The notes under the pieces are model-generated. The model was not told the DNA's origin. It did no database searches and worked only from the letters and a program-made list of their open reading frames with translations. The translations under genes and the position numbers were made by a program. A stretch of DNA of 64,000 nucleotides from contig NC_092312.1 in the NCBI RefSeq assembly GCF_036785885.1, forward strand, positions 18,494,001 to 18,558,000. Reading direction: 5' to 3'. This stretch comes from Coffea arabica. Lineage: Eukaryota > Streptophyta > Magnoliopsida > Gentianales > Rubiaceae. Numbering within the stretch: the first letter of the stretch is position 1; the number at the start of each line of letters is the position of its first letter. Shown here in pieces: positions 113 through 61,385 of the stretch.

Positions 113-172
113 AATCCTAATTACTACTAGCGTTTTATGGTGAAAACAGTTATACACAGCATTTTGCTCCTC

Positions 173-179
173 TATAAAT
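173..179 (+). promoter_or_regulatory. Possible TATA box upstream of MADS-A1
   Basis: TATAAAT within CTCTATAAATGC, about 450 bp before the A1 start codon. The same motif precedes A2 (16528-16534) and A3 (44788-44794). The distance is long for a core promoter of the MADS gene, so it may serve a long leader or nothing. Confidence 0.3.
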
Positions 180-524
180 GCTCTTCCATCTTTCGGCTCT
201 TTATGAAGACATAAGTAACGTGCCAAAAGCACTTTCTGTGCTCTAACAAATGCCTACAGAGTGAGTGTGAGTGCCAATTGATCATCAATTCATACCCAAA
301 ATGAGTAGAGAAACACATATATATGAGTTGACTTTGGCTTGCAATAATAACTGATACTTCACCTTGTAATGCCAACTAAGAGAAGATTTATGTCACACCA
401 TCATAGCATTAAGATCTAAGATTTTTTTAAACTCCCAAATCAAGGGTAATTATGCCTAATGATTACATATACTAGCTAGCACAAATTACAATCAATCTAT
501 CCAGATTCAAGAGTAAACTTGAGG

Positions 525-534
525 CCCTTTAAAT
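525..534 (+). promoter_or_regulatory. TATA-like CCCTTTAAAT, MADS-A1 core promoter
   Basis: CCCTTTAAAT lies 90 bp before the A1 start codon, with pyrimidine-rich leader sequence after it. The same ten bases occur before A2 (16880-16889), A3 (45140-45149), C1 (13340-13349) and C2 (41600-41609). The shared position suggests a core promoter inherited by the A and C lineages. I infer function from position only. Confidence 0.45.
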
Positions 535-624
535 TGTTGCTTCTCCACTTTATCCATAACTCTTCATAGAACCACCAAACCTAACCTAAAAAACCTCTCT
601 CCCTCTTGTATTCAGAAGAAGATC

Positions 625-1296
625 ATGGCAAAGAAACCTAGCATGGGTCGCCAAAAGATCAAAATTGCAAAAATTGAGACCAAGAATCATCTCCAAGTTA
701 CATTCTCAAAACGCCGTTCGGGACTCTATAAGAAGGCGCACGAACTCAGCACTCTCTGTGGCGTTGAATTAGCCATTATAGTTTTTTCCCCAGCGGGAAA
801 AGTATTTTCTTTTGGCCATCCTAGTGTCGATTACATAATCGATAAATTCATTGCGCGATGCAGAAATCCTCAGCCAAACTCGAGTGCACTCCACCTCGTT
901 GGGGCTCACAGGAATGCCAGTAGTGTCCGGGAGCTCAACTTGCAGCTCACTCAAATTCTCAGTGAATTAGAAATTGAGAAGAAAAGAGGCGAGGCATTTG
1001 ATCTCATGAGAAAAGCCAGCCAAAATCATTATTGGTGGGAATCCCCTGTTAATGAACTTGGATTACACGAACTTGAACAACTAAGAGATTCACTGGAAAA
1101 CATGAAAAACAGTGTGACGAGTCATGCTAGCAAGGTGGCGGCTGAGGCTAATTACAACAATTCTTCATTTTTTACACTAAACAATGGTGCTGCTGCGGGA
1201 TTGTATCATCAATATGAGAGCAAACCAACCGGGGTCAGCGTGGGTTCGGTCCATCCTAATATCTTCAACTTTGGATATGATAATGGAGGATTTTGA
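625..1296 (+). CDS. Type I (M-alpha) MADS-box protein, lineage A copy 1, AGL62-like
   Basis: Intronless 223-residue transcription factor. The MADS domain spans about residues 8-67: GRQKIKIAKIETKN, then VTFSKRRSGLYKKAHELSTL and the CGVELAIIVFSP core strand. The GHPSVDYIIDKF segment after it is typical of the AGL61/AGL62/AGL28 group. Residues about 100-165 form a coiled-coil-like region with the WWESPVNELGLHELEQL block found in this family. Known members act in the nucleus, pair with M-gamma partners and regulate central-cell and endosperm genes. The MADS-A2 and A3 proteins differ by T19I (in the MADS domain), I117V and G188C. The start is the first ATG and sits directly before the domain. An AGL61-like or AGL28-like role is equally possible. 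Family assignment is firm; the exact orthologue is not. Confidence 0.95.
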   Translation: MAKKPSMGRQKIKIAKIETKNHLQVTFSKRRSGLYKKAHELSTLCGVELAIIVFSPAGKVFSFGHPSVDYIIDKFIARCRNPQPNSSALHLVGAHRNASSVRELNLQLTQILSELEIEKKRGEAFDLMRKASQNHYWWESPVNELGLHELEQLRDSLENMKNSVTSHASKVAAEANYNNSSFFTLNNGAAAGLYHQYESKPTGVSVGSVHPNIFNFGYDNGGF

Positions 1297-1447
1297 AGCC
1301 TATTCGGTATAAACTTATCTCGTTTTTCCGATTTGACTTTGGTGGATCAAGCTAGTGCCTCGCTAGTCTAAACTGTCAATAATTAGGTCATTGCTCTTCT
1401 CTGATGATTCCTCCATCAATCTACTGTAAATAGTTTAATCTCATAAA
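1297..1447. other. MADS-A1 3' flank
   Basis: Short AT-rich 3' flank shared with A2 and A3. It probably contains the 3' UTR and polyadenylation site. No gene seen. Confidence 0.5.
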
Positions 1448-3900: not shown

Positions 3901-4568
3901 AGATCTGTGGTTGGCAAAGTCCGGATAAGTTTAATATATGCATGGCTTTCAGCAGTTTTTTTTTACTGTTTAGTTTATTGACGATTTTTCACAGTGTTGT
4001 TAGCGTTCGTTCCTTATGAATTACTATAAATTAGGCTCTTGCAGTGTTTTATTTTATTGTGTTGACTGATGTCTCTTTTTTTGTTTTTGTCTTTCAGTGA
4101 TTTTTAAGTAGGGAGTATTCTTTATCTCCCCCTCTATGCGTGCATATATTTATATATATATGTGTGTGCGATCCAATCTTAAATAATTGATATTAGTGTT
4201 AAAAAGCACACTTACTTTGTGTGCAATTTAGAAATCATTATTATTTTTTATGAATTTGTAAATTTTATTGTTTCATTAATAAATTTTATAAGAACTTTTC
4301 ATTAACAAACTTCAATTTATAATTAATTTTTTCTTCAATTAAAAATAGATAATTTGGTAATTGCAATATTTAGAGTGATTATGTTGGTAAATGTGATCAC
4401 GTGACTTAGGGTAAAAAATTAATTTTCTAAGAATAAAATTGAAAGTTCGAAAAAAAATTGTAGAAAATATTTACACTGGCTGTCAATGCCCTCTTCTTAT
4501 ATATTGTATAAGATTGAGGGCCTGGACTAAATGACACCAAATAGACAAAGTGAGATGTGTAAAAATAA
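3901..4568. other. Spacer between MADS-B1 and the truncated AspRS gene
   Basis: AT-rich, with no exon recognisable on either strand. The missing AspRS exons (the FPMFEW-type region and the motif 3 region) are not here. The ancient breakpoint that removed the AspRS 3' part must lie in this interval or just inside it. Differences between units 1 and 2 stop at a TA-repeat length change near 4155. Confidence 0.6.
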
Positions 4569-4649
4569 TTAATCCAAGTTTCCTTTCCTTTTTCTTTTAA
4601 ATCCAATAGTATATTGCATGAAATTAAAAGCTTTAAGCAGTAAACTTAC

Positions 4650-7600
4650 AGGATCAATCAAGCCCAAATCATGGGCTACATACAACCTCAGCCTATCTAA
4701 AGTTTTATTTACTGATGCAGGCTGACCCACTGCAAACAAGATGAGATCACCTGATCCCGCAGATAAGTGTTTGAGTAACTTGTCTTTCTTTGTGTGGTCC
4801 AAGCATGATACCAGTGGGGAAATCCCTTCAATTGCCCCTAAAAGATATACATCAAGCACTAAGAACAATATAATCTGCAAAATGCGATGAAATGTGCAAA
4901 CAATCACAAACATCACTCTCACCATCTTCTAACACCTTTAAGAAAGGCAAACCCTTTGCTCCAGATTTAATAGCTTCATTGTAAATATCACCTTTCTTCA
5001 AAGCAGTATTTGAGTATGTCTTTCCTCCTGAAGGGACACACAAGGCTTTAACAATTCCCCCACTCTTCAAGGTATCTGCAAATGCCTTGAAGGAGGAATC
5101 TGAAAATATCTCAGATACCTGCAAGCCAAGACCATTAGGTAATCACTCCAAAAAACAAAAAATAGATTTAAGATTTCATAATATAGTATCATCTATGGTA
5201 CCAAAAGAATGACAACCTGTCTCCCCCCCCCCCCCCCCCCCCTCTCCCAAAAAAAAAAAAGAAAAAGGGAAAAGAAACTATTTTTCTTGGGACAAACTGA
5301 AGAAGGGGCTATAGACTGCATTGGCAGCTCTCAGTTGAGAAAATTGAAAGAGATAAAGAATAAAAACAAATAATGCATGAAAACCAACAAGCTTTACATC
5401 TTTCAATCCAAGATCAAAACGAGTATCTGGCCTATCTGAACCGTATTGGCTCATGGCTTCAGCATAAGTGAGCCTTGGGAAAGGGTCAGGTAGCTGGACA
5501 CCTTTGATCTCAAGGAAAACCTGCAGGAAAATATTTATCATGCCCCGTCAACTTACCAGTTGAATATCAGAAGTAACAGCAAAAGTAATATCAATACAGA
5601 ATTAAGAGTTGTATTAAACATCTAAATTGGGCCATCAGAGCCCTCATCTACCCATGTAACCCATGCCTCGCTAGACCCTAACTCCATGCTACAAAAGGAA
5701 AAATTGGACAGCATCCAGCTTTAAACTTCAGGGGAAAAAATCAAGCTTATTAGAACAAACAACTATTTCGGAACAAACCTACATATATATATATATATAT
5801 TATTTGCTGATACCAAAAGGAATCATATGATAGACTACAAGCATGACGAGGTAAAATTTACACTAAAACATACGTATAATTTGTTTCAATCTTCTAAAAG
5901 ATATTTAGTCAGATAATGCAAAAGATTGTCATGTTTACTCAGAAGTAATAATTATTTTCGGCACCACATATAGGCCAAGCATGTGCACAGCTGATGATGT
6001 TTAGCTTCTATACAGCAAAATGTTATACAAGTTTTAACAAGATTAATGCTATTACAGTTCAATTCCCACACCCAGCCCATAACACAGGAGAATGTTACTA
6101 AAATTGGAAAGTAAAAGATCATACAAAAATCTACCAGGAGGTGCGAAACCTAGGTCATCAAATTCAAATACTAACCAATCAGTTGAAAAACAGGATTCAA
6201 CCATCATATAGGCTCTGGTCGAAAATAACATTCGATTCAGAATTTCTGGAAGGTATTAAAAATTCAAATCAACAGTTTAGAGCCCCACAATGTACGTAAA
6301 TTTAGTTATAATATTGCTATGGAAGAACAGCTTCTTTTAATGAAAATTTCAGGACATGTTTTACAGAATTTTATGTGCAGAAAATATATCTCACTTCAAT
6401 AGAGGATTTTATCAAAGGTCTGAAGGAACTCACAAATTGTGAAATCAGATTATTGCTCTACTATCTATTAGGCTATCAACTACAGCAAACTAATTGGCAG
6501 GATCAAGGAAGTGAGAGGGGTCAGCTAAATGAAACGTATCTTAACTCACTGGATCATTCTAATGCTTTTATCCCCACCTCATTTCATTTTGTGATTTGTT
6601 ACCTCATCAAACTATTTCTACCACCCAAAAAAAAAAAAAAAGACAACCTTCCTAATCAAATCTTCATTAAGTCTGAGCATGTCCTCTAAGGGAGTGAAAG
6701 CCATCTCCATATCTAGTTGCGTAAATTCAGGTTGTCTATCTGCCCTTAGATCTTCATCCCTGAAACACCTGCAAAGCAAGAGCAGATGAAGTCACATTGT
6801 GGTCTTGGTTGTATACTAATAAATGACCCAGCAATAAATGCAAAATTTCTTGATCCCCCCTCTAGAATCCTTTTTCCTCATAATAATCTGAGGGGGGAAG
6901 GGGGGAGATCCTCTTCACATAAGTTGAACAATGTGTGGCAGAATGTAAAGATGCAAGAGAAAAGGGGAATTTAAATGAAAATCAACAGTCTGATCAAATA
7001 GTCGTAAACTTAAAACTTATTACCTTGCAATTTGATAGTATTTATCAAAACCAGAGACCATCAACATTTGTTTGAACAGCTGCGGACTTTGGGGCAAGGC
7101 ATAAAATGTTCCTGGCTTTAAATGATGGAATTAAGCAATCAGATTTTTATTTGATGACTGATATATCTCTGGAAAACATAAACTTGAAACGTAGAGAATT
7201 AGATGTTAAAAAGCCAATAAAACAAGTAAATATTTTTCATCCTTGATGTTTCGATGTATCAAATGCTGTATGGAAATTGTTCAGCCTCCATCACTTCCAA
7301 AAGATCTACACGAGTTGTATTAAATGGCGTTCTCCTTTTCTTATCTTACAAGTTGCCTTGAGCGGGTTCTCAACAACAAAGGTAAAAAGTTTGGGGAATA
7401 ACAGCTCAAATGCAATGAAATTTTAACTCTGAGTATAAATTTGAGAAGCTAAAAACATAGGTAGCCATAAAAGGCTGGAGATTAAGCGTAGCTTAGAAAA
7501 CACAATTTGGCTTGAATTCGAGATTGAAGCCTGATGGGATGGGAATTCTTTCAAAATCACTAAGTCATCACCAGGACAAACGACAACATCAATACCAAGA

Positions 7601-10481
7601 TTACATTTTGTTTTTCAATTCACTTCAACAGAAAACAAGGGAAAACACCAAAAGAGTGAAGAGGAGAAATTAGAGATAATCCCGAGATAGGTACATTTAA
7701 CAGGGCAAATACTGTACCTGAATTCTTGAAGGGACAAGATAATCCCGAGCACCTTCTGGGGTAGATCTAGATAGAATTGGAGTCTCAATCTGCCTTACAA
7801 ACATGAAGGCAAGGATCAGAGAGTGGAAGAGACAGACTCCAGTAGAATCTTCTGATTGCACTAAGATGTTAAAATGCAAACATTACCTCCACAAAATCAT
7901 GTACATCCTCAAGGTACCTTCGGATGAGTTTTACCACTTGATGCCGCAATATAATGTTGGAAGTCATTTGTGGCCGGCGCAAATCAAGGCATCGATATCT
8001 AGTAACAGGTATGGGGACCATTTAATCCGTACAGTTTAAGAGACATGCATCGAAGATCTTACAAGCAGTAAACAATCAATATATTTTAGGCTATGGAAAA
8101 AACTATGGCCTCTGAAGCATTGCATGCTTTAAAGCCACAAACTACATTGAATAGAAAACACACATCATAGGGTATGGAACATGCAAAATGTGAGAATTGA
8201 TGGTAAATAACCCATGCTACCTCTTCAACTATGTGGTTCAAAGATCAACATCACCAAAATCCCTTATCATCATATAGTGATATTACTTACTAATTTTATT
8301 TCTTCTCTTGTAAATGAGGCAAGCACTAGTATTCTTTTACTTAAGCAGTTAAGTGTCTCAGAAACAACTAGAACAACAAACCATGACCCAAGCAAACTCC
8401 AGTTTACCCACTCCAGTCACAATACCACAAATTAGCGAGAGGAAGCAGAAACAAAAGTAGACCTTCAATCATTAAGAAATGCCCAACTCGACCAGAAAAG
8501 TAAAAATATCAATTATCAAGAGAACTAACAGCAATCTGCAGAGAGAAGCAAAACATAAGCCCATGGTCAAAAAACTTCAGAAAGTTTTCACCTCAAGCGA
8601 ATTTCCTCCTTTACAGATTCTTTGGCATCATCTGCAGTAGTAACTAAGAAAGGCAGCTTAGATCTCACAGTATTCAGAACATGGACACGCTCAGCAGCCA
8701 CCTGCAAACTTAAGCAATTGTACTAAAACCACCAAAAAGAATAATCATCCAGGAGCAAATCCAAGTTAAGGAAATAATAAAACAGCGGTCATCAGTTATT
8801 AGAATTCGTCTTCCACAATCAACTACACATCATAATTCCACAACCAACTTTGCAGAAACTAAGTAAATTGTGGAGCACTGAGATAAAGAACTCATCCATG
8901 AACATATGATTATAACATCAGCAACAATTCATTACCTTTCCTTCTCTCCTAGTCAATCACCAGCATCAGACTTCGATTTTCTCTTTCTCTGATGCACCTA
9001 AGCTGTGATCTTCTTCTAATAACACTTATAGAATAGCAATTCAAACAAGGTCGTATTTTAACCATATTAATCATTACACTTGGAAGGTTTTTGCGGGGGA
9101 AAACATAAAACATTGCCCTTGGATTGTTCTTGTTACACCTGTTAATTTTAACACTTGAACACTTCAAAAATTGGGCCAGGGGGACTGCTTGAACAAAAGC
9201 CTAAAAAGGTTTTCCTTCAAATCACAATGCAAAACACCCTTGACACAATAGATCTGGTTGAATTCATAACAACTAGCACCACGCCTTGTTTTCAGCCATA
9301 GGCATGTTATTCTCAGTTTCTTAAAGAGTTCATGGAGACTAAACAGACAGGTGAACTGCCAAAGGAGACCTCAAATTCAAATTTTCTAGACTTACTATAG
9401 TGAGAATGTCATCAGTGACTTCCTTCAGCTGCTTTTTCTGTAATTATTGCAGAATGCATCCATCTATGCATAAAGATTTAAAGCTAAAGCAGAACACACC
9501 TCTACTGCACCAGTCCTCATCTTCTTGTTGACAGACTCAATTGGGCGAGGCCGAACAACACCTTCTACGGCCACCACATACTCAACTCTTAAGTCATTCA
9601 CTGTTGAATGAGCATCAGGAAATTCGTTGGGAAGGGTCGTAATCTGAAATTCCCAAAGCACAAAAGGTAAAGACCAGTTCAACAACTCGCCCCAAAGATA
9701 CTCTTTGTCGCAATTTCATCAAATAGCATATTCATAGCTACTCTTTCCCATGCAGCATTTATCGCAAATCAACAAGCATTCTCAACAAAGAAAACAAACC
9801 AAAACACGGATTGTAGACTGTAAGTACTGGTAACTTCAGACAGATTACTTCAAATAAAATTCCATCAATGTTCAAAATTTTCCACGTTTCCTAGGCAGAA
9901 TGCCTTAAATTTCTGACTTAAGTAAACAAACTAATGGTCATCATGTTCAAAAATATTTATTACAATGGAAAAATAAAAGCAATAGCCAGTCAAGAACTAT
10001 TACATGCTCAAGAAATGAAAGATTGAGAATTCATTATTTTTTTTTAAAAAAAAAAAGGAGAGAGAGAGAGAAGAAAATGAAAAATAAGTACCTGTACAAC
10101 ACCGGTATGGTCACGGAGATTAACGAAAGTGAGGCCACCATGAACACGATGAAGGGCAACCCAGCCGCAGAGCCTGACCCGTTTATTCACATCAGCTTCT
10201 GACAATTCACCGCAGAAAGCGGTCCGGCTCACCCATTCAAGAGAAGGGATGGAGCGAGATACTTTAGGGGAAGCGGCAACAAGTGGTGTTTCAGTTGAAG
10301 AAGGAGAAGGAGACGAAGCAGAAACAGAAGGAGTTGAAATGCAGCGTTTAGGAGGTTGCGTGGGTTTGAAGCTGGGGCTGTGCGAGTTTAGGAATAGAAG
10401 AGGCAATGGAGGTGGTTTGAGTGAGAAGTGTTTATAGCGGAAGGCTATACTGGGCAGAGCGCGGAGGAGTTGTGCGGCCAT
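4650..10481 (-). pseudogene. 3'-truncated organellar aspartyl-tRNA synthetase gene, copy 1
   Basis: Ten exons join in one open frame of 516 codons: 10481-10092, 9643-9500, 8701-8592, 7998-7887, 7789-7718, 7115-7024, 6768-6648, 5520-5398, 5118-4923, 4837-4650. Every junction has GT-AG sites and matching phase. The first ATG opens a Ser/Pro-rich organelle transit peptide (MAAQLLRALPSIAFRYKHFS). An OB-fold anticodon-binding domain, class II motif 1 (FVEIETPIL), motif 2 ([20 protein letters not shown]) and the bacterial-type GAD insert (exons 8-10) follow. The protein stops at about AHDLGLIDP. Motif 3 and the rest of the catalytic core, roughly the last third of the family length, are absent. The last donor site is intact but no acceptor exon follows. 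Reading through would add 26 residues, to a stop at 4569-4571. The product cannot charge tRNA. The intact N-terminal part could still be expressed and imported, which is inference. Confidence 0.88.
5223..5242. repeat. C20 homopolymer in AspRS intron 8
   Basis: Run of twenty C residues followed by TCTCCC and an A-tract. It has the same length in unit 2 (33483-33502) but about 23 in unit 3 (61236-61258). Such runs change length quickly, so equal length supports very recent common origin of units 1 and 2. Confidence 0.9.
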
Positions 10482-14722: not shown

Positions 14723-14738
14723 TTAATGTACTCATCTT

Positions 14739-17651: not shown

Positions 17652-17802
17652 AGCCTATTCGGTATAAACTTATCTCGTTTTTCCGATTTGACTTTGGTGC
17701 ATCAAGCTAGTGCCTCGCTAGTCTAAACTGTCAATAATTATGTCATTGCTCTTCTCTGATGATTCCTCCATCAATCTACTATAAATAGTTTAATCTCATA
17801 AA

Positions 17803-17955
17803 GGGTGCGTTTGGTACTATAGAATTGAAATTGAATTAGAATTCGAATTCTATAAAATTGGAATTCCAAGTCATTGCAATTCTTTCGTTTGGAAAATGCA
17901 TAGAATTGGTATGGAATTTCAAATTCTTTATTTGCGTGAGAGAAGAATTCATTAG
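17803..17955. mobile_element. Left part of the split MITE
   Basis: This matches 1448-1596, with the GGGTGCGTTTGGTACTATAG end, and stops at ATTAG (17951-17955). Unrelated sequence (the 11.9-kb block) follows. The matching right part begins at 29855. Confidence 0.85.
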
Positions 17956-18515
17956 ATATTCATGAGATAAAAAAAGTAGCTCAAAAAATAATAAAGGTGG
18001 TGAGAAAAAATTGTGTTAAAAATCCCCAATAAAGTTTTTCCCAAACAACTACTATTCAAACAAACAATTTGGCTTCTAATTAGGATTAAAAGCAGTGAAA
18101 CATCTCCAACAATCAACCGAGCTGCATGATACCCCTAGCGATTCTTGCACCTACTTTGGACCTTTGATCTGAACTGAATTAATGAAAAAGATAACTTCAT
18201 CAATTTCATTAGATAAATGACCTTTGCAGCTTCACCCTCACCTTCAGTGGGATCCTTAATTGACGAGGCTAACTAAACAAAGGGAATTTGTCTTTTGATT
18301 TCCAGGGCAGGCTAGTCGTCCATTAGTGGCGGTCCGTGGACTTTTACTTTGGACATCTTACATGTTATGTTAGTTGAATTCCGTAGCACAGCCTTCACAT
18401 CACTTAGAGCTATCAGCTATAATATTTGACAGTTGAGTTATTTTTCATGTTGTAAACATGTAACCGAGAGAAAACATGAACATTGTACTCTTCCTAACAG
18501 AGACCTTAGTTAGTG
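17956..18515. other. Left end of the EG45-AFG1 block
   Basis: No gene or clear repeat seen. Ordinary AT-rich intergenic sequence. Confidence 0.4.
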
Positions 18516-18523
18516 TACCAACA

Positions 18524-18891
18524 ATGGTTCAAAGACTTGGCTGAGTCGTCACCAGAAATGGGCTTTCCGATCCGATACCAGGATGAGATGGTTCCGAGAT
18601 AATGAATTGTCGAGAACTTGGCCGAATCACCGAAAACTCAACCAAGACGTCTTCGAAATGGATAGAAACGGTCGAATCGTCCCGAGTCACTCCGAATCAT
18701 CCCAAATCAATTTGAATTTTTATTATTTTTACTAATTTTTAATTATTTTTGTTTATCATATTTTTTACAATTTTTAAAATATTAAATATTTTAAAAATTT
18801 GCGTTTCGCTGAGACCGCGGTCGATGCGTCGAGACAGATGTGGAACAGTTTGGGCCGCGACCGCAACTGCGACGGCGACTTTGAACCATGT
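18524..18891. mobile_element. hAT-type MITE with 8-bp target duplication, copy 1
   Basis: The 368-bp element lies between perfect TACCAACA repeats (18516-18523 and 18892-18899), the target length typical of hAT. The ends are inverted: ATGGTTCAAAG on the left, CTTTGAACCATGT on the right. The right interior is GC-rich (GGCCGCGACCGCAACTGCGA) and the middle is AT-rich. No transposase is encoded. It is duplicated with the array at 46784-47151. Confidence 0.85.
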
Positions 18892-18899
18892 TACCAACA

Positions 18900-19368
18900 C
18901 GATTGTGATTCCTTTGATGACATGTTTTATAAGAGTGGGTAGAGGATTTATATATATATATATATGAAGTTTCTTGAAACCTACTAATGTATTTCTTTAG
19001 TGACATGTGCTAAATTTCCAAAACCCTATTTGATTATGAACAATGTGATTGATGGTAGTTTGATAGCGTACCATGTTTGTAAAAAACAAAACATTTCTAG
19101 GGGAAAGTGGAAAGATTGTGCATGACGCAGGAAACCATATGCTCAACCCCTCCTCTCATCGTCAACAAGCTGAATTCATTTCACCATCCATTGTCAACGT
19201 GGACTGCAATTGCCATTGATTCCCAACCAAAAGTACTCGTGCTGCTTGCAGCTTAGATATTGGCAACTTTTCTTAGTAGCTATCCACATTCAAATACCTT
19301 AATAAAAAAATAAAGGGGACGGTTTAGAGATCAGTTTGAAACCTCGGGCTGATTTTATCTACAGCTAG
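18900..19368. other. EG45 copy 1 upstream region
   Basis: Contains a TA microsatellite near 18949-18965. Otherwise ordinary AT-rich sequence likely holding EG45 promoter elements. Confidence 0.4.
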
Positions 19369-19375
19369 TATAAAT
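19369..19375 (+). promoter_or_regulatory. TATA box of EG45 gene copy 1
   Basis: TATAAAT, 96 bp before the EG45 start codon. Identical at 47629-47635 in unit 2. Confidence 0.6.
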
Positions 19376-19464
19376 TTGAGGTAAATTAGGCACATTTCCC
19401 CCACATCCGAAGTCGAGAATCAAGCTACCCTACCTAGGCAGAAGTAAAGTCCACAGCCATAATC

Positions 19465-20101: not shown

Positions 20102-20310
20102 AGAGGGATTTGACTTCCATATATATATATATATACGTGTAATTTTACGGGCTGAAGATCAAGAGGAAAAGGGCATCCTTGGAAATAGGAACAGAACTAG
20201 ATAGCAAAATGTTGTTTAAAAATTCATTTCCCTTTGTTATCGGTATATCCTATTAAATGATGGCAAACGAGCACAAAAAATGTACTAAAAGTTTCGACGT
20301 GATGTACACA

Positions 20311-46215: not shown

Positions 46216-46783
46216 ATATTCATGAGATAAAAAAAGTAGCTCAAAAAATAATAAAGGTGGTGAGAAAAAATTGTGTTAAAAATCCCCAATAAAGTTTTTC
46301 CCAAACAACTACTATTCAAACAAACAATTTGGCTTCTAATTAGGATTAAAAGCAGTGAAACATCTCCAACAATCAACCGAGCTGCATGATACCCCTAGCG
46401 ATTCTTGCACCTACTTTGGACCTTTGATCTGAACTGAATTAATGAAAAAGATAACTTCATCAATTTCATTAGATAAATGACCTTTGCAGCTTCACCCTCA
46501 CCTTCAGTGGGATCCTTAATTGACGAGGCTAACTAAACAAAGGGAATTTGTCTTTTGATTTCCAGGGCAGGCTAGTCGTCCATTAGTGGCGGTCCGTGGA
46601 CTTTTACTTTGGACATCTTACATGTTATGTTAGTTGAATTCCGTAGCACAGCCTTCACATCACTTAGAGCTATCAGCTATAATATTTGACAGTTGAGTTA
46701 TTTTTCATGTTGTAAACATGTAACCGAGAGAAAACATGAACATTGTACTCTTCCTAACAGAGACCTTAGTTAGTGTACCAACA

Positions 46784-47151
46784 ATGGTTCAAAGACTTGG
46801 CTGAGTCGTCACCAGAAATGGGCTTTCCGATCCGATACCAGGATGAGATGGTTCCGAGATAATGAATTGTCGAGAACTTGGCCGAATCACCGAAAACTCA
46901 ACCAAGACGTCTTCGAAATGGATAGAAACGGTCGAATCGTCCCGAGTCACTCCGAATCATCCCAAATCAATTTGAATTTTTATTATTTTTACTAATTTTT
47001 AATTATTTTTGTTTATCATATTTTTTACAATTTTTAAAATATTAAATATTTTAAAAATTTGCGTTTCGCTGAGACCGCGGTCGATGCGTCGAGACAGATG
47101 TGGAACAGTTTGGGCCGCGACCGCAACTGCGACGGCGACTTTGAACCATGT
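46784..47151. mobile_element. hAT-type MITE, copy 2
   Basis: Duplicate of 18524-18891, with TACCAACA at 46776-46783 and 47152-47159. Confidence 0.85.
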
Positions 47152-47724
47152 TACCAACACGATTGTGATTCCTTTGATGACATGTTTTATAAGAGTGGGT
47201 AGAGGATTTATATATATATATATATGAAGTTTCTTGAAACCTACTAATGTATTTCTTTAGTGACATGTGCTAAATTTCCAAAACCCTATTTGATTATGAA
47301 CAATGTGATTGATGGTAGTTTGATAGCGTACCATGTTTGTAAAAAACAAAACATTTCTAGGGGAAAGTGGAAAGATTGTGCATGACGCAGGAAACCATAT
47401 GCTCAACCCCTCCTCTCATCGTCAACAAGCTGAATTCATTTCACCATCCATTGTCAACGTGGACTGCAATTGCCATTGATTCCCAACCAAAAGTACTCGT
47501 GCTGCTTGCAGCTTAGATATTGGCAACTTTTCTTAGTAGCTATCCACATTCAAATACCTTAATAAAAAAATAAAGGGGACGGTTTAGAGATCAGTTTGAA
47601 ACCTCGGGCTGATTTTATCTACAGCTAGTATAAATTTGAGGTAAATTAGGCACATTTCCCCCACATCCGAAGTCGAGAATCAAGCTACCCTACCTAGGCA
47701 GAAGTAAAGTCCACAGCCATAATC

Positions 47725-48361
47725 ATGGATCTCCTACGCTTCAAATTTGTCTTAATCAGCATATTCAGTCTGGCTAAAATAAACTTAGTCCTTGGACACA
47801 TTGGCACTGCCACTTCTTACAATCCTCCATATACCCGTGAGCAACATTTGATTTCTCAGAAGTTTCTATATCATTATTTAGCAGCAGCTTTTTTGTTTTT
47901 TCAGTTGTTTGAGAATCGTATTAGGAAGGATATGGAATTTGATTATAAAATTTACTCTAAATTTAACTCGTGCAGCCACCAAGTGCGGGGGAAACAGAAA
48001 TGATCAGTTTCCAGCAGGAAATCTGTTCGTTGCTGTGAGTGAAGGGCTGTGGGATAACGGGGCTGCATGCGGCAGACGCTACAGATTAAGATGCTTGAGC
48101 GGCAGCAACAAGCCATGCAGAGATATTGGCACCACCATCGACGTTAGGGTGGTGGATTTCTGCCCAAGACGCCCATGCCCTTCCACCATTGTTTTGTCTA
48201 GTGATGCTTTTGCAGCTATCTCCCGCAACCCTGATGCCAAAATCAACATTGAATACATCCAGTACTTACACTTCTTCCTTGTCTCCAGCTTATTATCTTC
48301 ACTATGTTCTTCGGTTGCTCCATTGCTTAATATTTTACGTCACACCTTTTGCAGGATATGA
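47725..48361 (+). CDS. EG45-domain secreted protein, copy 2
   Basis: Exons 47725-47836, 47976-48261 and 48355-48361 encode the same 134-residue secreted protein as the copy at 19465. No coding difference was noticed. The TATA box at 47629-47635 is preserved, so both copies could be expressed and would double the gene dosage. Confidence 0.92.
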
Positions 48362-48570
48362 AGAGGGATTTGACTTCCATATATATATATATATACGTGT
48401 AATTTTACGGGCTGAAGATCAAGAGGAAAAGGGCATCCTTGGAAATAGGAACAGAACTAGATAGCAAAATGTTGTTTAAAAATTCATTTCCCTTTGTTAT
48501 CGGTATATCCTATTAAATGATGGCAAACGAGCACAAAAAATGTACTAAAAGTTTCGACGTGATGTACACA

Positions 48571-51500
48571 TCAAATGATTTCAAGAGATGGTTCCCGAAA
48601 TTGAGTTGCTTTTGCATTAAGAGTACCAAAGCTTTCCTTTTGATTCTGGAAATACGGATGAAGATGGCGGACACCTTCCAGGTATAAAGGTGTTTGCATC
48701 TCAATCAAGCGGGAAACCTGCATGTACCAGCCTTTTAGTTCATGCCCTAATGTACAGTATATAGAGGCCACAATCACAACCACAACTTACCAGATAACAA
48801 AGATAGAACAAAAGATATTAACAGATTATTCCTGATAGCAAATCTTAGGCCATGGCGAATACACCAGTCAAGAACTGAGTTAATGAATCCACCAGATTCA
48901 TCTTATTATGGCAGCATGACAATTTCTTCTGCTAGTCTAATGAAGCAGGTATTATTGGGTGCAGCATGGGACACTATCTGAATGTTGCTAGGGGTACAAG
49001 TCTTAGTTGTTTTGACGACAAACTTGTTTTCATCAATGGCAATAGTGGGTTAAGTGTTACAAAACCAACTCAAGGAGTAAAGTGGGAGAAAGTAACTTTA
49101 AGACTAACATGCAAAGCATGCTAAACCTGATGGGGTTTTACTGCGATTAACCCTTCAGGGAAATTGCAATAACCTTCTATGAGAAGGTTTAACATGCTAA
49201 ACTATGGACTTAGAAACAGCATTTCCTATGACTTGACAGAAAAAATGTAGAACATTCATGATAAAAGACGGCAAAAATTGACAATCACGCAAAAAATGAC
49301 TTACAGCTCGGCGAAATGCAAACATCTCCTCTTGACCAGATAGCATGGAAGTAATTCCAGTTGGTGTACCACCAGAACTAACTGTGCCCTCTGCTAGAAC
49401 ATCTCGTCGCAGTTTGGCACCTTCAGTCTCTGTTTCAAATTGGAAGCTGGAAAAGGAGAGCAGAAATGAACCAATGTAGTCTTTATAACCAAAGACAGAA
49501 GTTGAAGCTAAAAGACAGGTGATGTAGATGGCATATTGCTTAAACTTTAAAGTTTTCCAGCAACTCTAGACGGGTCAAAGACTGGCCTTACGAATGTTAT
49601 CCATTCATATTTGATTCGATTTTCTCACTGAGAATGTACTTGACCAGAAACTTGATCATCAGTCACCAGACATAAAAGAGAAGTAATGTCTATGCCAAAA
49701 GTCACTTCCATACTCTTTTAAAACAGTAAATTCACTATATCCATTTTACTGCCAATCCTGATATCATGCTACCAACCTAGTGCATACCCTTAGATTTCTT
49801 AATAGCAGGTTTAGATGACATTGCCATTTGGGAAGCAATGTGTAATATAAAACTATGTCTTTTGCATTAAAAAGAGACAATTATTTGTGCCTAAATTTGA
49901 ATTGATCAATTTATCACATCACTCTGTTAATGAAAATGTTATGATTCATTTTCTGGAGGGAAATATCACGTCTGCATACAAGGACGACATATTTGGTCTT
50001 TTAATCCTCGAATCCTTTCATAAGTATTACTAACATAACAATCTATTCTACTAAAATCAATTATTCATTGAAATCGCAGCAAGTAAATCATCTCTCTCTC
50101 TCTCTCTCTCTCTCTAATGTATATTAATGCTTTAGGATTGTCCTTGACGAATCATAGTTAATTTACATTATGAGATATTAGGCCAAAAGCACACTAAGTC
50201 ATAAAAAGAAAAAATAAAGACGTACAGGGCAACATAAAACTGAACTGTCAGAATATAGGAAAAACAAAAATGAAAATAGGGCACACCGTAAGCAGAGGTA
50301 AAGCACAGCGCACATTTTTCACTGAAAATTGACACATAAAACTTGCATCATGAGAAACAATGTCAAAATGGTACAATAAAACCCTAGCTAATGAAAGAAC
50401 TTGGCTCTGCTCAGGAGAAAAGAAGCAGAAAACAGATATAATTAAAAAAAATGAAAAAAAAACCTCCATGGCTCTAGGAAACTTCTCATAATAGAATTTT
50501 GATACTTTTAGGGAATACTTTGTTATATAACATTGATCTATAATGAATTGATGACATGTTGCAAGTATGCTAGGTAGTGTAAAATAATTTCTGATGAAAC
50601 TCATGCGTGTCAATAGATGAAAGAGCTAACTAAGCAAAGCCAAAGGGTGTGGGGGTCATCCATGGACCAATGTGTCAAGAAACTCACAAAAGAAGAATGA
50701 TCAAATGATTTCCTCACCTCTCCAAGTCAAAAAGTGTACCCTCTTCAGTTCCTTGAAATAGGTCATCTATTGAAGAAGCAGCAGAACAGTATAGGCAGCA
50801 ATGGTGATTGTAAAGTTCATCAATGAGAGTTATAAATCTCCGAGCCTGGAAGCGAGAAACCCAGTATCGGTAATTGTAGCTGGTAATCATACAGAAGCAA
50901 TATCAATCTGTTTATTAGACTGTCAGTCTATCAGTTTGTCTTAGCTTTCCAAAGATAAGATAATCATTGGAAGCTTTAGAATGCTCACACATTGGTCAGT
51001 CTTATCCAAGAAAAACAGGATAACCTGATAAACTGCACAAGCACCTTGCAAGCATATAGAGCAATCTATTAGGTAGCTTGTAAACTGTTGTCCTTAAAAG
51101 GTGCCTTAAATTGTTTCACTAAAATGGCACCATATTTTAGTATGCTGAAAACTATGATCCCTAAATACACTGAGGGCGACTATACTTCAGAAACCCATCC
51201 ATGAGACTGAATAAGCCACCATGATCCATGGAACATGTTCAAACTCAAGCTAAGCGCATAGCAATCAGGAATCTAGAAGCTGTATCTTATTGTATACTAC
51301 TAATGGTGGCTGGTAAGTTTCGAAGTAAGTTTATCATAAACCTTGAGACAAGTATGATTTTCCCTTGAGATGACATTTTAAGGGAACCTGTTCGACCTTC
51401 AAAAGCTCCCTTCCCCCTTGATGTAATAGGTAAAATAAGAAAAGAAAGACTAAAGTGAAAAATAGGCAATTTCTCCTTACATTAAACTGAAAGAAGGAAA

Positions 51501-54500
51501 AAGAAGAATGTCAAGTGAACAGCATGGGCGATAAGAAGCATATCTATTCATTTAAAGCCTGATGTAAATCACAAAAACTTGCATGCACAAAAATGCTGTA
51601 GGAATTGATACTGATGTACTGAAGGAAATAGCATTCACTTAAGCAGCCTTGGTACCTTATCACGAATTCGCATGCTCATAGTAGGGATGTCTGAGATAAA
51701 GATCATGTGGTAATTTTTAGCTACAGAAATATAATCTGCGGCTCCAACCTGCAATAATTGCTAATGGGATCAAACAGGAAAAAGAAGGTAAAGGGGGACG
51801 TGCAACAAGGTCAAGCATCAAAAAATTAAATTAAAATGCAGTGCAGATGTCACTGAGTGGTTGGTTCATCTATCAGGGACAGGAATTGATAGCTTTAGTA
51901 TACACTCACAAACAGTAAGAATCATCTGAGACTTGGAAGATATTTTTTAGGAAGGAATACTCATATTTTTCCACCAAAGTACTTTTCTTTGTAGTAATAT
52001 CCAATAATATGACAGTATGAACTCTTTGAATATTGATCTAGACATGGACCTAGCTATTTTCATTTGTTTCATCAAGTTTCCTTCCTTTTGTTTGCAAAAG
52101 TACATTACAAGATGGAAGGAAGGATTTCAATTTAAAGATGTGCAAAAATATACGAGGCACAAATCTTAGAAAGAGTCAAAGCAAGTTTAACAGTCTTTAG
52201 TCGTAAAATCGACCAGATATTGCTTCTGTTTTCGAATGTTTTCAGATAATGAATGATACTAAATATGCATCAGCATACACACAATAGAAATTGTTCCAGC
52301 ATGAACAGAGCGCCAAAAGAGAGAGAAAAAAGATAGACTAGCTTTGAATTAGTGATACTATAAAAAAACACTAAACCACAATCTAAATATTTCGAGCTTT
52401 TCTATTTACAGTACCATCATTTAAACAATCCTAAATCATTATAGGCAGGTTTCAGCTTATAAATTATTTTGAAGAAAGAATGATTTAGATGGTATTAATT
52501 TAAATAGCACAACAATATAAAAGATACTTTTACCCAAAATGAAGCAATTTACCGGTCGACCGCATAGGTACTCAAATGTGAAACGTGCCAAACCGTTACA
52601 GCTTAGGCGAACCTCCAATGTTCTGATTGCGAAAAAAATGTAATATCAAAAGCTGAGTGAGATATATCAGTAAAATGGACGCAGATAGATTGAAGAGTAC
52701 CTCCCAAACATCACTCGAATTGCCTTTGAAGTGATTATTCCCCCAGATAGTCTTGTAAGCTTGTCCCACATAATCTCAAATTCCTCTGTTTTGATACTAT
52801 TCAGTGGCCAAAAATAATGAACCTGAATAGACATAGGAAAATGGAGATGCACTTAACCCCAAAAACAACATCTAAGTACAGGTTGGACTTATTCTATGAC
52901 TAACAGATAACCAATATATTGGAGCAACGAAGACGATGAGACTGAAGTAGAATATAGAAAATTCAATTAAGTTCAGAAAGAAACAAAAATATATATCTCA
53001 ACCACACCAACTAAGACTCAAGTTCATCTTTTTGCCAGGAGAATCTTTAGAAATGTTACGAGTGTGAATATTCCTACAGCTGAATGGACCAATTAAAGAA
53101 TTTAGACAAAAAGAAACTGAATCTTATTGCAATGTAATACCACATTCTTGTTTAGCAAACCATTCATTATTCAGAGCTATCTCCAGGATACACCTTCAAA
53201 TGTGCTTAAATTTTCAAGCTTGTTCTTTTTATTGCTCTCTTTGTCAATCATTAAGGTTCTGTACAATACTCGTACATCTGCATGTATGGTAATTAAGGAT
53301 GTGGCCATCACATCTTTCACAACTAAAAGTCATAAAAACAGAAACACATGGAAAAGATAATTGATTTGCCTTCATGCTCACCTGATCAATAGATCTTTTT
53401 GCTATAAGACGGCGATAGTCAATTTCACTTCCTATTAGACAGTTATCACATTGTTCATCCAATTTTGCTACAAGCTTTTGGAAGATTTCCTTTTGCATAC
53501 CATCCTGAAAGGAAGGAGAGAAGTTGCAGGAACATTTTATATGGGGTGCAATATATGTTCAAAGTCCCATGCATAGCATGTCACAGAGTCCTGGATAGAA
53601 CACCAAAGGAAGCATAAAAACATAAATTTATTTAGTATAAAGACACCTGATTCAGGTCTCTCGGTGCACGATTACTGGTGGCAACAAGAATTGTTCCATT
53701 GCTTAACAATCTACTTAGAATTCCAGATAATGCTACGATTGCAAAAACATCAACTGTCTGCAAGAGCAAGTAAGATATTAAATTTAAAGATTCCGTCTCC
53801 AAAATTTCAATCCGACTCAGAAATTTGCACGAAATAAAGAATATAACTTAATCATTCAAAGAAAAATTATGCCCCACTCATTTGCAGAAAATAATATAAG
53901 GTAAAACAAAACCCGCTTCATAATATAATTCCAATATCCAGTTCAAGTAGCAGTAAACTGATCTACAAAATGAATCACGTTAGATGTAGTAGTACAATAA
54001 CATAACACTTAGTCATGTTGCAAATTAGATTTCTTTAACAGGGTCTGTTATTCATGTTTGTACTTAGGAATTCTACAAGGGTAGAACTCAAACATTTTAT
54101 TACAGTAGATGACTAACTTGAATATTCTGTCTTCCCACTTATAGTAACAAACATCAGTTGAACCTAATATTCTTGCTCAGATAACTAACAAAAAAAAGGA
54201 TTTATAAAGAAGACAGTAACAGATATCTGTAGGTAAGGATGTAGATAATTCTTGAAGAACCACTAAAGTAAATCTATGAAACATTACATCATCAGACCTG
54301 TATTTCATCAAAGCACAGAAGGCTAGCTCCTGCATGATTTCCATGGGCTTCAGTGAGAAACTTATCAGCTACAGCAGGAAGGATGTTTTTCATCTGCACC
54401 TCTTGCTTATATCTTTCTTCTGCAGCTAACCACTCTTTAATTTTTGTATCAAAGGGAAGATTAGTAATCCAACTAGAAATACTTGACTGCAAACTTTTAT

Positions 54501-56649
54501 TCTTAACTTGATCCTTCCATATCTTATGCATGTGCTCATTTATTAACAGCATAGCCTGTCGAGAAAAGACATTTTTAAAGAGCAATAAAAAAATAATTAT
54601 GGAAACAAAAATGAAAATCCGCAAAAATTAAGGTTTGAAGCAAGTTAAGCCCAAACCAACTTATATTGTGTGTGTGTGTGTGTGTCTTTATTTGTGTTCT
54701 GCATGCTTCCTGTTGGTCAACATTCCTCAAGCCAGATGAGGAGTGAGTACTTTTGATTTGCCAAAGCATTAGTTGGTACAGAGTGGTCTTAATATAAAAC
54801 CTACTCCTCCATCTGTTAATGTTGATATCTACACATGATGGGTTTGTAGAGAAACATTATAGGTAAAGCAAATGTGGTGTCACTGACTACTGTGGCACGT
54901 TAAATATTTCCCTATAGTTCTGTGATTCTATCCTCCTGTACCAACTTCATGATGTGCTAATTCTGAAAGTTTGATTCATTCTTCTTCTGCTTTTGCAGAA
55001 GTAGTTATCAACTTTTTAACTGCTGCCTTCTTGCACTACCTACCCAGAAAGTCTTGTTTACGTCCATCAATCAGTTTTAAGCTTCTTACCAAGAAAAACA
55101 AGGATAGAGCAACGACTAGACCTACTACAGAACTTTCAATATGGAATCCATGAGAGTTTGTTATACCTTTGATAGGAAGCATCAAGCAAAAAGAAGCTAT
55201 AATTAGAATAAATGCAATATATGCTCCATTTTAATCTCATTTGCCTTAAACTCTACAAGTCTTTTGTTTGTGGTTTATCATCTTATGGAATGCCTAGGGT
55301 TCTCTCACCAAATGCCTTACAGTCAAAAGAAAGACATGCCAGAAGTCAAAGAAGATATAGCAGGGCTTACATATGCCCATCCAACATTGACAAGGAGAAA
55401 CCAAGAAGAAACAAGATATGATGAACCAAATAAAAGCTAGCAAAGTGGAGACTGGCAAATGAACAGAAAGTAATAAGAACTTGTAACTTAATTTTTTCCA
55501 AGTAGAATTGCATAACAGCTGCTTAGGAAAATAATTCACATAATAAAATTCAGAAGATGGCATAGTGAAATTACACCACACTCTGTACCAGTATGCAGTC
55601 ACCTCATGAAAGTGAAATCTTCTTTGGTGTTTTACAACTCCTTCAGTCGCACCATAAAACATATCCATAAGCATTGTCTTACCTAAATGATGCAAAAATT
55701 TCTTCAAATTGGTATGTGAAAAAGTAAAACCACAACCAGAATAATATTAATAGAGAGAGATGCTGTGTATTAACATGCTATTCATGTTAGATTGCATGTC
55801 TACTTTATAAAAGATAAGTGAAATCATTGAATCCTTTTAGTGCCTTAATGTAGTAACATACTAGAAATCTTAAGTGCAGAAATGTGCATTGGCAAGGAAG
55901 TGCAGATAATCAAGATGCAGGAACGAACCACTTCCAACGTTCCCATAAAGATACAATCCTCTGGGGGCTGGAGGAGCAGTGGGACGACGACCAACCAGTG
56001 AATCTAATTTCTTCTCTCGATTAAGATATGAGACCCATTTCCCTACTCCTGGCTCTACAATTTCATGTTTCTTCCTGAATGAAGACAAATATCACTAGCA
56101 GGGAAAAAATATATTTCTTTTGACTGATGAAGGGAGCAAAATACAGGAATTGGACCTCATGCTGAACTTTACAGAATTCGCAACTGGTTCAATGACAGGA
56201 AATCCTATTCAGATTTTTATGAACCAACGTATAATTCATTGAAATATCCAGTTTCAGTATTGCTACAAAATCAAGGGAAAATTGATAGCCTTACCGGGAC
56301 ATCCATCTTTGGAAAAGATTTCGCTGCTTGCTTATTGATGTCATACCACCCCCCTCTTGTTTGGTCTCAGCTTCCTGCATCAAAAGCCTGCGCCGTTCGT
56401 TTTCCCTCTTCTGCTCCCATTTGGTAAGCTTTTCCTATGAATATGAGGAATAACATAAGGCCAGGAACAGCGTTTCAGTATTATTTAACCACTATAAACT
56501 GTTGTGGCCTACATGGTACTCCTCCATATCTTTCTCATATTGCTCCATTCTCCCAAGCAGATTTTCCAGTTTAAAAGCAACCTCTTCCTGGTAAGGATCA
56601 TGCTGCAGCTTCCCTTACTTAACAAGACTCCTATACTGTGCAAGTGGCC
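48571..56649 (-). pseudogene. AFG1-like ATPase, copy 2, broken by a nonsense codon
   Basis: All thirteen exons of copy 1 are present, from 56649-56513 to 48717-48571. In the first of them a G-to-A change on the plus strand at 56617 (copy 1: 28358) turns the Gln codon CAA of LVKQGKLQHD into TAA. A 508-bp deletion just upstream (junction 56719-56721) has also removed the candidate exon seen at 28840-28963. The rest of the frame is preserved, as expected for a very recent duplicate. Initiation downstream of the stop could still give a protein with Walker A and B, but no start context is evident. Confidence 0.85.
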
Positions 56650-57605
56650 CTGCAGGAGATCCATTGAAAAGATAATTTGAGTTCACAGCTAAACAACTTG
56701 GAAAATAAATGCAAAGGCACATGTGAGTAGAGGAATTAAATAATACTCTCCCTCCTCATGCGTGGAAGGTATATCATTGTAATAGGCCAAACATGTGGGA
56801 CAAAAAATTAATAGGATATACAGATAAAGCCCTCAGTAGGTTGACGTAATTTTCCATTACAAAGTACAATATCCATTTATTAATGCATCATAGACCCTAA
56901 CCCATGTAAAATGTAGTCCCCAGCAAAACAAGATACATTGTGTGATTGAGAGCTTGGACTCCCTAGAGAAGCACTAATCAACTAAAGCAGTCTTCACTCA
57001 ATAATCAACCAAAGCTAAACGGTCTCCATTCAGAATATTAAACTGTTTGTCAAGCATCAGAAAGAACAATATAAAAGCTTCATAGAAGCATTCTCCGAGA
57101 TCACAGATTAACAAGTTAAGATTGGAGCATTTCTCTGTCCAGGGAATCAAGCATATAAAAGGAAATCTTCGCAGAATGGTTTAACTAGTAAGACCACATG
57201 GTAGATCTCTAGCTAGCCATCCTTTGAGCAGCCATATCCATGAGAGAAAAACCTCACATGACCTGCTTTTTGTCCAGTTTTCAGTTGCTCTTATTTCTCA
57301 CTCACACAGTATGACATTGGCTTTTATTCGTGAATGGGATATATCTAACAAAGAGAGGGCAATAAAGTGAAAAGGAAGGAAGAATGATAGAGAAGAAAAC
57401 TTGCAATTTTTCTCAATGAAGCCACGAGGTTAGGCTTTCTGTATAATGGTTTAGTGCTCATGAAATTGCGACTCATTATATAATTTTCAGACTTTTTAAA
57501 CTATAATCAAATTTTGACATGCGAAATATGAAGAGAACTGAGCAGTGGCTTAAGTTAGTGTGTCAATAAGTTTGGACATTTCTGTAGTGAAAAAGACAAA
57601 TCAAT
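56650..57605. other. Upstream remnant of AFG1 copy 2
   Basis: About 950 bp between the first recognisable AFG1 exon and the block edge, shortened by the 508-bp deletion. No gene. Confidence 0.5.
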
Positions 57606-58052
57606 AATTAGAATTATTTTCATGAAACATTTGCTTACATAAAATTTTTATTTTATTTTTACATAATAATTTTTTTCTTACATCTAGCTAATTTTTACTA
57701 AAAATTTAAAGGAAAAAATCAATTTATGCCTTTAATAATTTATTTTTTCGTGCATTTAGCTAATTGTTACTAAAGTTTTAAAGAAAAAAGCAAATTACTT
57801 CCTTTTTTTTGGCAAAATACCAGCCAAAGCCCCAAAACCAGCTGAGACATTCAGCAAAAATTACAACCAACAATGACAATATAAATAGAAAATATTGCAA
57901 CAATGACAATATAAAGTGTCATTGAATTCAAGCCCCGTAGAATTGAAATTTAATTCTAATTATTTGGGAAAGTTAGAAGCCAAACAAAAGAATTAGAATT
58001 GAGGCTTCCAATTCCAATTCTATGCCTCAATTCTATAGGAACCAAACCTCCC
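57606..58052. mobile_element. Right part of the split MITE, unit 3
   Basis: Matches 1598-2041 and 29855-30301 with private changes. Its terminus reads CCTCCC where the others read CCACCC. Confidence 0.82.
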
Positions 58053-59097: not shown

Positions 59098-59190
59098 TAT
59101 ATAATAATAGGATGGGATGCCAAAGCAATGTAGCTAGCCCTTAATTCATCAAAATCCCACCAAAAGACAAAAAAAAAAAAAAAGGCGAAA

Positions 59191-59913
59191 ATGAACAACA
59201 TAATGATGAAGAAGAAGACGACCCAAGGTCGAAAAAAAATCGAGATCAAGAAGATAGACAACTTGAGCAACAGGCAAGTAACCTTCTCCAAGCGAAGAGT
59301 CGGTCTCTTCAAGAAAGCAAGTGAACTTTGCGTCTTGACCGGGGCAGAAGTTGCCATCATCGTTCATTCTTTGGGCAAGCGCGTCTTTGCTTTTGGTCAC
59401 CCCAACATTGACGCTGTTATTAACCGCTATACCACGGGATCGGCATCATCATCATCATCATCATCCTCCTCGTCATCCGTTGCTGATCCGAAAACCCCAT
59501 TGGGTGCTCATGAGATTCAACAACACAACCGACACTATGCTAAAGTGTCCAAAGAATTAGAGGTCGAGAGAAAAAGAAAGGAATTGATTGAAGGTTCGAA
59601 GTTAGAGAACGGTGGGAGTTTTTGGTGGGATGACCCAATTGAGCATATGGGTTTGGAGGACCTTCAACAGTATAAAGCTTCATTGGAAGAGTTGAAGAAA
59701 AAGCTGTTGATGAGAGCCGATGACTTGATATTGTTGAAAAATTCTTCTTCTTCTTCAACTAATTTGGGCTTAAATAATAGCGGTGATATCAATCCCGGCG
59801 TGACTGCAGTTGGTTGTGATGATATGTTCTTCAATCAGACGACGACTGAATACTGCAACAACTCCATCGTTCCTTATGGTTCTGATGACTTCGGAAATTC
59901 TCTGCAGGTTTGA
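59191..59913 (+). CDS. Type I (M-alpha) MADS-box protein, lineage B copy 3
   Basis: Intact 240-codon gene with the plan described for the copy at 3178. Protein changes relative to B1 are M4I, I102T (just after the serine tract), M180I and L213F. It keeps D157 as in B1. It shares I180 with B2, so B2 and B3 are not simply derived one from the other after B1. The TATA box is at 59098-59105. Downstream only a small AspRS remnant remains before the array ends. Confidence 0.95.
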   Translation: MNNIMMKKKTTQGRKKIEIKKIDNLSNRQVTFSKRRVGLFKKASELCVLTGAEVAIIVHSLGKRVFAFGHPNIDAVINRYTTGSASSSSSSSSSSSVADPKTPLGAHEIQQHNRHYAKVSKELEVERKRKELIEGSKLENGGSFWWDDPIEHMGLEDLQQYKASLEELKKKLLMRADDLILLKNSSSSSTNLGLNNSGDINPGVTAVGCDDMFFNQTTTEYCNNSIVPYGSDDFGNSLQV

Positions 59914-60662
59914 AGATCTGTGGTTGGCAAAGTCAGGATAAGTTTAATATATGCATGGCTTTCAGCAGTTTTTTTTTACTGTTTAGTTTATTGATGGTTT
60001 TTCACAGTGTTGTTAGCGTTCGTTCCTTATGAATTACTATAAATTAGGCTCTTGCAGTGTTTTATTTTATTGTGTTGACTGATGTCTCTTTTTTTGTTTT
60101 TGTCTTTCAGTGATTTTTAAGTAGGGAGTATTCTTTATCTCCCCCTCTATGCGTGCATATATTTATATATATATGTGTGTGCGATCCAATCTTAAATAAT
60201 TGATATTAGTGTTAAAAAGCACACTCACTGTGTGTGCAATTTAGAAATCATTATTATTTTTTATGAATTTGTAAATTTTATTGTTTCATTAATAAATTTT
60301 ATAAGAACTTTTCATTAGCAAACTTCAATTTATAATTAATTTTTTCTTCAATTAAAAATAGATAATTTGGTAATTGCAATATTTAGAGTGATTATGTTGG
60401 TAAATGTGATCACGTGACTTAGGGTAAAAAATTAATTTTCTAAGAATAAAATTGAAAGTTCGAAAAAAAATTGTAGAAAATATTTACACGGGCTGTCAAT
60501 GCCCTCTTCTTATATATTGTATAAGATTGAGGGCCTGGACTAAATGACACCAAACAGACAAAGTGAGATGTGTAAAAATAATTAATCCAAGTTTCCTTTC
60601 CTTTTTCTTTTAAATCCAATAGTATATTGCATGAAATTAAAAGCTTTAAGCAGTAAACTTAC

Positions 60663-61131
60663 AGGATCAATCAAGCCCAAATCATGGGCTACATACAACC
60701 TCGGCCTATCTAATGTTTTATTTACTGATGCAGGCTGACCCACTGCAAACAAGGTGAGATCACCTGATCCCGCAGATAAGTGTTTGAGTAACTTGTCTTT
60801 CTTTGTGTGGTCCAAGCATGATACCAGTGGGGAAATCCCTTCAATTGCCCCTAAAAGATATACATCAAGCACTAAGAACAATATAATCTGCAAAATGCGA
60901 TGAAATGTGCAAACAATCACAAACATCACTCTCACCATCTTCTAACACCTTTAAGAAAGGCAAACCCTTTGCTCCAGATTTAATAGCTTCATTGTAAATA
61001 TCACCTTTCTTCAAAGCAGTATTTGAGTATGTCTTTCCTCCTGAAGGGACACACAAGGCTTTAACAATTCCCCCACTCTTCAAGGTATCTGCAAATGCCT
61101 TGAAGGAGGAATTTGAAAATATCTCAGATAC
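60663..61131 (-). pseudogene. AspRS fragment, copy 3 (two exons)
   Basis: Only the two GAD-insert exons survive, 61131-60936 and 60850-60663. They end at the same truncated donor as the other copies. The upstream exons, start codon, transit peptide and anticodon domain are missing because the array breaks at about 61385, inside the intron. Coding changes against copies 1 and 2 include D to N in EIFSDSS, I to T in DLILFAV and L to P in LDRLRLY. This is more divergence than copies 1 and 2 show, and fits unconstrained decay. Confidence 0.9.
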
Positions 61132-61235
61132 CTGCAAGCCAAGACCATTAGGTAATCACTCCAAAAAACAAAAAATAGATTTAAGATTTCATAATATAGT
61201 ATCATCTATGGTACCAAAAGAATGACAACCTGTCT

Positions 61236-61258
61236 CCCCCCCCCCCCCCCCCCCCCCC
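61236..61258. repeat. C homopolymer in AspRS fragment 3
   Basis: About 23 C residues at the site where units 1 and 2 have 20. Confidence 0.85.
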
Positions 61259-61385
61259 TCTCCCAAAAAAAAAAAAGAAAAAGGGAAAAGAAACTATTTT
61301 TCTTGGGACAAACTGAAGAAGGGGCTATAGACTGCATTGGCAGCTCTCAGTTGAGAAAATTGAAAGAGATAAAGAATAAAAACAA

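Follow-up and report, generated by a model that had tools for sequence, protein, structure and literature searches.

A mosaic tandem array, probably heterozygous and of recent amplification, at a type I-like MADS-box cluster in Coffea arabica

Type I MADS-box genes undergo birth-and-death evolution (Nam et al. 2004, cited in PMC13293092). They are described as helping to control endosperm growth and hybrid seed failure, with dosage thought to be important (PMC11060687, PMC11649575), AGL62-type M-alpha* proteins are described as endosperm regulators (PMC13293092, PMC11060687), and maternal small RNAs have been tied to repression of type I MADS genes (PMC13293092, PMC11060687, PMC11649575). The locus described here is like the birth-and-death families in having a MADS domain without a K-box match, single-ORF genes, and multiple copies together with pseudogenes. 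It is unlike them in that the repeated element is a 65.6-kb mosaic super-unit, with segments that match other chromosomes, on one of two homologues. Its genes share with those of the AGL62-type M-alpha* proteins a short single-ORF form and a putatively similar MADS motif, and they are known here from sequence alone.

Templated insertions place copied distant segments in or at the join of a local duplication, with 0 to 2 bp of microhomology and local filler. Rearrangements of this kind have been reported in cancer genomes (PMC7058534, PMC9588063). The present locus resembles them in having distant segments inside the unit and at its join, 0 to 2 bp of microhomology, and short local filler, but it lies in a plant chromosome and was then tandemly amplified. 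A search of titles and the first parts of abstracts found no published case of such an array, which is not proof of absence.

We analyzed a 64,000-nucleotide stretch (the window, C3:18494001-18558000) of a 1.198-Gb assembly in 131 contigs, and extended the reading to C3:18374001-18648000 and C4:18540001-18580000. The first 264 kb read on C3 and all 40 kb read on C4 are free of N. The window holds eight full-length MADS ORFs in the order A C B A C B A C (Table 1), which confirms the eight intact genes in three lineages reported in a preliminary description of this DNA. The fixed gene order given there holds within the window and breaks down beyond it, where the C gene at 59191 is followed by an A gene with no B gene between them. 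One copy-specific SNP from the same description is correctly placed at 1186, while those given as 3646 and 3715 sit 2 bases further on.

Table 1. Positions of annotated features within the 64,000-nucleotide window
Feature	Position	Strand	Basis or remark
A gene, type without insert (A_e), 223 aa	625..1296	+	ORF, Pfam scan
C gene, alpha copy, 240 aa	3178..3900	+	ORF, Pfam scan
B gene, 221 aa	13395..14060	+	ORF, Pfam scan
A gene, type with insert (A_f), 223 aa	16980..17651	+	ORF
C gene, beta copy, 240 aa	31440..32162	+	ORF
B gene, second, 221 aa	41655..42320	+	ORF
A gene, type with insert (A_f), second, 223 aa	45240..45911	+	ORF
C gene, gamma copy, 240 aa	59191..59913	+	ORF
3'-truncated aspartyl-tRNA synthetase gene, GAD domain	4512..10481	-	starts at J1 (4511/4512); Pfam
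Second truncated aspartyl-tRNA synthetase copy	32772..38741	-	J1 at 32771/32772
R', synthetase fragment after C gene	60523..61396, approximate	-	limits from C4 alignment
323-bp piece, first part of insert, 97% to C3:63.93 Mb	17956..18278	+	
C16-like segment, 11,578 bp, 99.35% to C16:239349-250952	18279..29856	+	alignment
323-bp piece, second copy	46216..46538	+	
C16-like segment, second copy, short by about 507 bp	46539..57607	+	
C11-like segment, cut by window end	61397..64000	+	joins C gamma to next A
End of preceding C11-like segment copy	1..114	+	

One A, one B, and one C protein were scanned against Pfam, and each matched the SRF-type MADS domain (SRF-TF, PF00319; E values of 1.2e-24, 6e-23, and 7.8e-21, respectively) with no K-box at an E value of ≤0.001. 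The PDB matches of the A protein were chains of animal MEF2 and SRF, yeast MCM1, and plant SEPALLATA 3. Each intact MADS copy is a single ORF of 221 to 241 aa, which fits the mostly intronless type I genes. The A, B, and C genes thus look like type I (M-type) MADS genes, and their motifs suggest that they may be of M-alpha, AGL61/AGL62 identity. A scan found no tRNA genes in the window. Two tandem repeats with a 72-bp period also lie there and have no bearing on the array.

Self-alignment of the C3 stretch gave 118 kb at 99.95% identity with an offset of 65,647, and the copies within the window align across 26.9 kb at 99.89 to 99.90%; the longest exact repeat expected by chance is about 17 bp, by formula and without a shuffle. 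The main array, C3:18393025-18577040, consists of about 2.8 copies of a 65.64-kb super-unit and contains the whole window. Since this period exceeds the length of the window, it is not visible in the window alone. The super-unit runs A_e, C alpha, the junction J1, truncated synthetase, B, A_f, insert, and C beta, and it continues with J1, truncated synthetase, B, A_f, insert, C gamma, and the C11-like segment. It combines local DNA with stretches that match C16, C11, and a remote part of C3. The limits of 113 and 61385 previously given for the repeats lie no more than about 12 bases away from where the C11-derived segment ends.

The spacings of about 16.36 and 28.26 kb that had been noted are real (A, 16,355 and 28,260; B, 28,260; C, 28,262 and 27,751). 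They had been read as two nested levels of amplification, a structure that the analysis did not support. The difference between 28,260 and 16,355 is 11,905, close to the 11,901 bp of the insert, so the two periods are one type of unit without and with the insert. That a whole block rather than single genes has been amplified is borne out on C3. Across the C3 stretch, 27 of 36 copies are intact (A, 8 of 9; B, 7 of 7; C, 9 of 9; and C-related, 3 of 11). The left end of the array has lost an A gene by deletion, and the A gene at the right end is cut short. The 11 C-related copies form a second array that adjoins the first downstream (C3, 18577 to 18638 kb), in units of about 5.07 and 6.09 kb. The 6.09-kb units include a piece of a repeat dispersed over many contigs (C3:18582924-18584710), and the shorter units match just the first 915 bases of that interval.

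MADS matches are collinear between odd- and even-numbered contigs (for example, C3:2877230 with C4:2878297 and C3:74208278 with C4:74248139), from which we read C1 to C22 as 11 homologous pairs. On C4, A, B, and C occur once each, all three open, between matching flanks. The 23 kb of C4 18547061-18570435 corresponds to the 264 kb of C3 18384035-18648000, an excess of about 240 kb on C3, and a 10-kb query from C4 18570001 matches C3 from 18647562 onward. A genome-wide search with the C protein gave one C4 place at ≥90% identity among the 150 of 248 candidates that were scored. A single A-B-C set, the result that the preliminary description had named as speaking against its reading, was thus found on C4, and the array accordingly seems to be polymorphic and not fixed. 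Apparently, one homologue carries a recently amplified array and its partner a single set. We consider it likely that this type I MADS-box cluster is heterozygous for a mosaic tandem array that was amplified recently.

J1, at which DNA downstream of C is joined to the inside of the synthetase gene, was found six times in C3 and has identical junction letters in C4. Its presence in C4 makes the first step older than the divergence of the two haplotypes, and for the same reason C4 may be contracted rather than ancestral. The C4 set is flanked by an 809-bp direct repeat of 98.8% identity; because this repeat ends at J1, the first event may itself have produced it. The synthetase pieces carry anticodon-binding, class II synthetase, and GAD domains by Pfam, and a PDB search with one piece gave no match at an E value of ≤0.001. 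Open stretches beyond J1 in C4, read by eye, are presumably later synthetase exons, judging from their motifs, which would leave the amplified synthetase copies without their 3' part.

Over their 65.6 kb, super-units 1 and 2 are distinguished by only 3 substitutions and 2 indels. They share identical runs of 27.8 and 29.8 kb, which are longer than common accurate long reads, and this makes the exact number of super-units the weakest point. Such near-identity is what an assembly error might produce, with the C3 super-unit count inflated or C4 collapsed and the real copies fewer or more evenly shared, and on account of it a miscounted 65-kb unit or a collapsed C4 has to be reckoned with. Other features speak against this. 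Across the nine C modules, 18 columns are variable, most of them in a pattern that repeats every three copies, and the joins to other chromosomes are each present in 3 to 5 copies. The ends of the array are unlike its interior, not only in their A genes: the 13.4-kb synthetase-B-A module at the right end differs by 14 to 15 substitutions from the others, whereas the other five of six differ mutually by 0 to 1 substitutions and 0 to 2 indels. These modules are far closer to one another than to C4, from which they differ by 83 to 87 substitutions (86 to 87 for the five interior ones). We therefore think that such an error is unlikely to account for the array. Nor are the array copies likely to be misplaced copies of the other haplotype, with interior modules 0 to 1 substitutions apart against 86 to 87 to C4.

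Compared with super-unit 1, the partial first unit has 4 substitutions and 5 indels over 35.4 kb, and the partial last unit has 14 substitutions and 3 indels over 17.3 kb. The B coding sequence at the right end is identical to that of C4. A_e is separated from A_f by 15 substitutions in about 1.5 kb, and the C gamma module is separated from the remaining C modules by 12 to 14 in 1.8 kb. These differences point to older, distinct lineages that were joined before the recent amplification. If the mutation rate is taken as about 7e-9 per site per generation, 3 substitutions in 65.6 kb would correspond, roughly, to a few thousand generations.

The coding changes are few. Summed over A_f, B, and C alpha, comparison with C4 gave 4 synonymous and 11 nonsynonymous changes over about 444 and 1607 sites (ratio, about 0.76), about neutral for the sites counted, and A_e against C4 gave 0 synonymous and 5 nonsynonymous changes. 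Over 19 pairs, dN/dS ranged from 0.16 (A versus B, where dS is saturated) to 1.91 and was undefined for pairs without a synonymous change. The intact C-related copies gave values of 0.36 to 0.49 against C, which indicates some constraint and not pure neutrality. On these small numbers, constraint looks strong in the long term and relaxed recently.

The extra MADS copies might instead have been favored by selection on dosage, through endosperm growth or the balance of parental conflict. It is in keeping with this that the reading frame is open in all 24 B, C, and nontruncated A copies of the main array and its left flank, and that AGL62 is listed as a dosage-sensitive seed-size regulator in a 2026 review (PMC13293092). 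Against it, 8 of the 11 C-related copies are frame-broken yet amplified, and passengers were amplified as well, namely, the 3'-truncated aspartyl-tRNA synthetase gene and the C16-like and C11-like DNA. The amplification of broken copies and the near-neutral coding change argue against simple dosage selection, which we think improbable. On the reading that we favor, the extra genes would be under weak selection.

The array may have a role in the endosperm, where it could, as the preliminary description proposed, alter the balance of heterodimers. If the copies are expressed, gene dosage at the locus would differ greatly between the two haplotypes, and 27 versus 3 intact copies between the homologues of one plant would amount to a natural dosage experiment. 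The array could conceivably act as a haplotype-specific seed-dosage element, in which intact copies would raise endosperm type I MADS activity, or in which small RNAs arising from its many near-identical and broken copies would lower it. We regard this as quite improbable; were it true, crosses would differ according to the parent that transmits the C3 haplotype.

The 11,901-bp insert is made of 323 bp found elsewhere on C3 and 11,578 bp of C16-like DNA, which aligns as one block to a single place on C16. The first C16-like copy in the window (18279..29856) contains an ORF with a double-psi beta-barrel domain (PF03330). The C16 match came from a 2-kb query and was missed by a long DNA query, for which 33 of 1531 candidates were scored. 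Over a 2-kb part, the C16 segment shows 96% identity to its C15 counterpart, so donor identity bounds the age of the insert only loosely. The insert follows five A copies, and the site is empty in C4 and in three C3 copies; the ninth A ends before the site. The insert lies inside a dispersed repeat (window positions 17802-17955 and 29855-30164) that is present at many other sites. The insert-matching region C16:235325-242066 lies on the opposite strand in C15:658813-667467, which suggests a local inversion near the contig start.

At J3, a segment of about 4.4 kb stands between C gamma and A_e; it is 98.6% identical to C11:11.02 Mb and is present on C12 too. Counted by eye, microhomology amounts to 1 bp on the left side of the insert and 2 bp on its right side, with 0 bp where its two parts meet. 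At J3 there is 1 bp on the right side, while the left side carries an 11-bp filler copied from C11 sequence close by. With 0 to 2 bp at four joins, a local copy at the fifth, and distant matches, these junctions have the features of templated insertion or Pol-theta end joining. The joins were probably made by error-prone break repair, through Pol-theta end joining or template switching. Copying would have run from C16 and C11 to C3, since the C4 site is empty and each segment occurs on two contigs, one on C15 and C16 (for the 2 kb tested) and the other on C11 and C12. The joined units would then have been multiplied by unequal recombination between long direct repeats, in line with the 809-bp flanking repeat in C4 and with the six C3 places that hold J1. 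The locus would thus let one read how a gene array can be started by break repair that uses distant templates and then be enlarged by recombination.

Helitrons have 5' TC and 3' CTRR ends and insert between A and T. The origin of the insert as a transposable element, such as a Helitron with captured gene fragments, is hardly credible: its pieces do come from two places and it does lie within a dispersed repeat, but it starts with ATATTC and ends with CAATAA, about 2 bp are lost at a site that holds two ATTAG words and shows no clear target-site duplication, and its 11.6-kb part matches one C16 place in a single block, and we rejected Helitron capture because the ends and target site, read from the junction letters, do not fit.

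Other MADS loci were seen in the same genome. A second MADS cluster seems to differ between homologues, C11:20926501-21064193 having at least 7 matches, three of them equal scoring at a 53- to 56-kb spacing, and C12:20005677-20154105 having at least 2, among the 150 of 260 candidates that were scored. Equal-scoring MADS matches also occur in opposite orientations at C17:6914949 and C17:6967622, with one similar match at C18:5270653.
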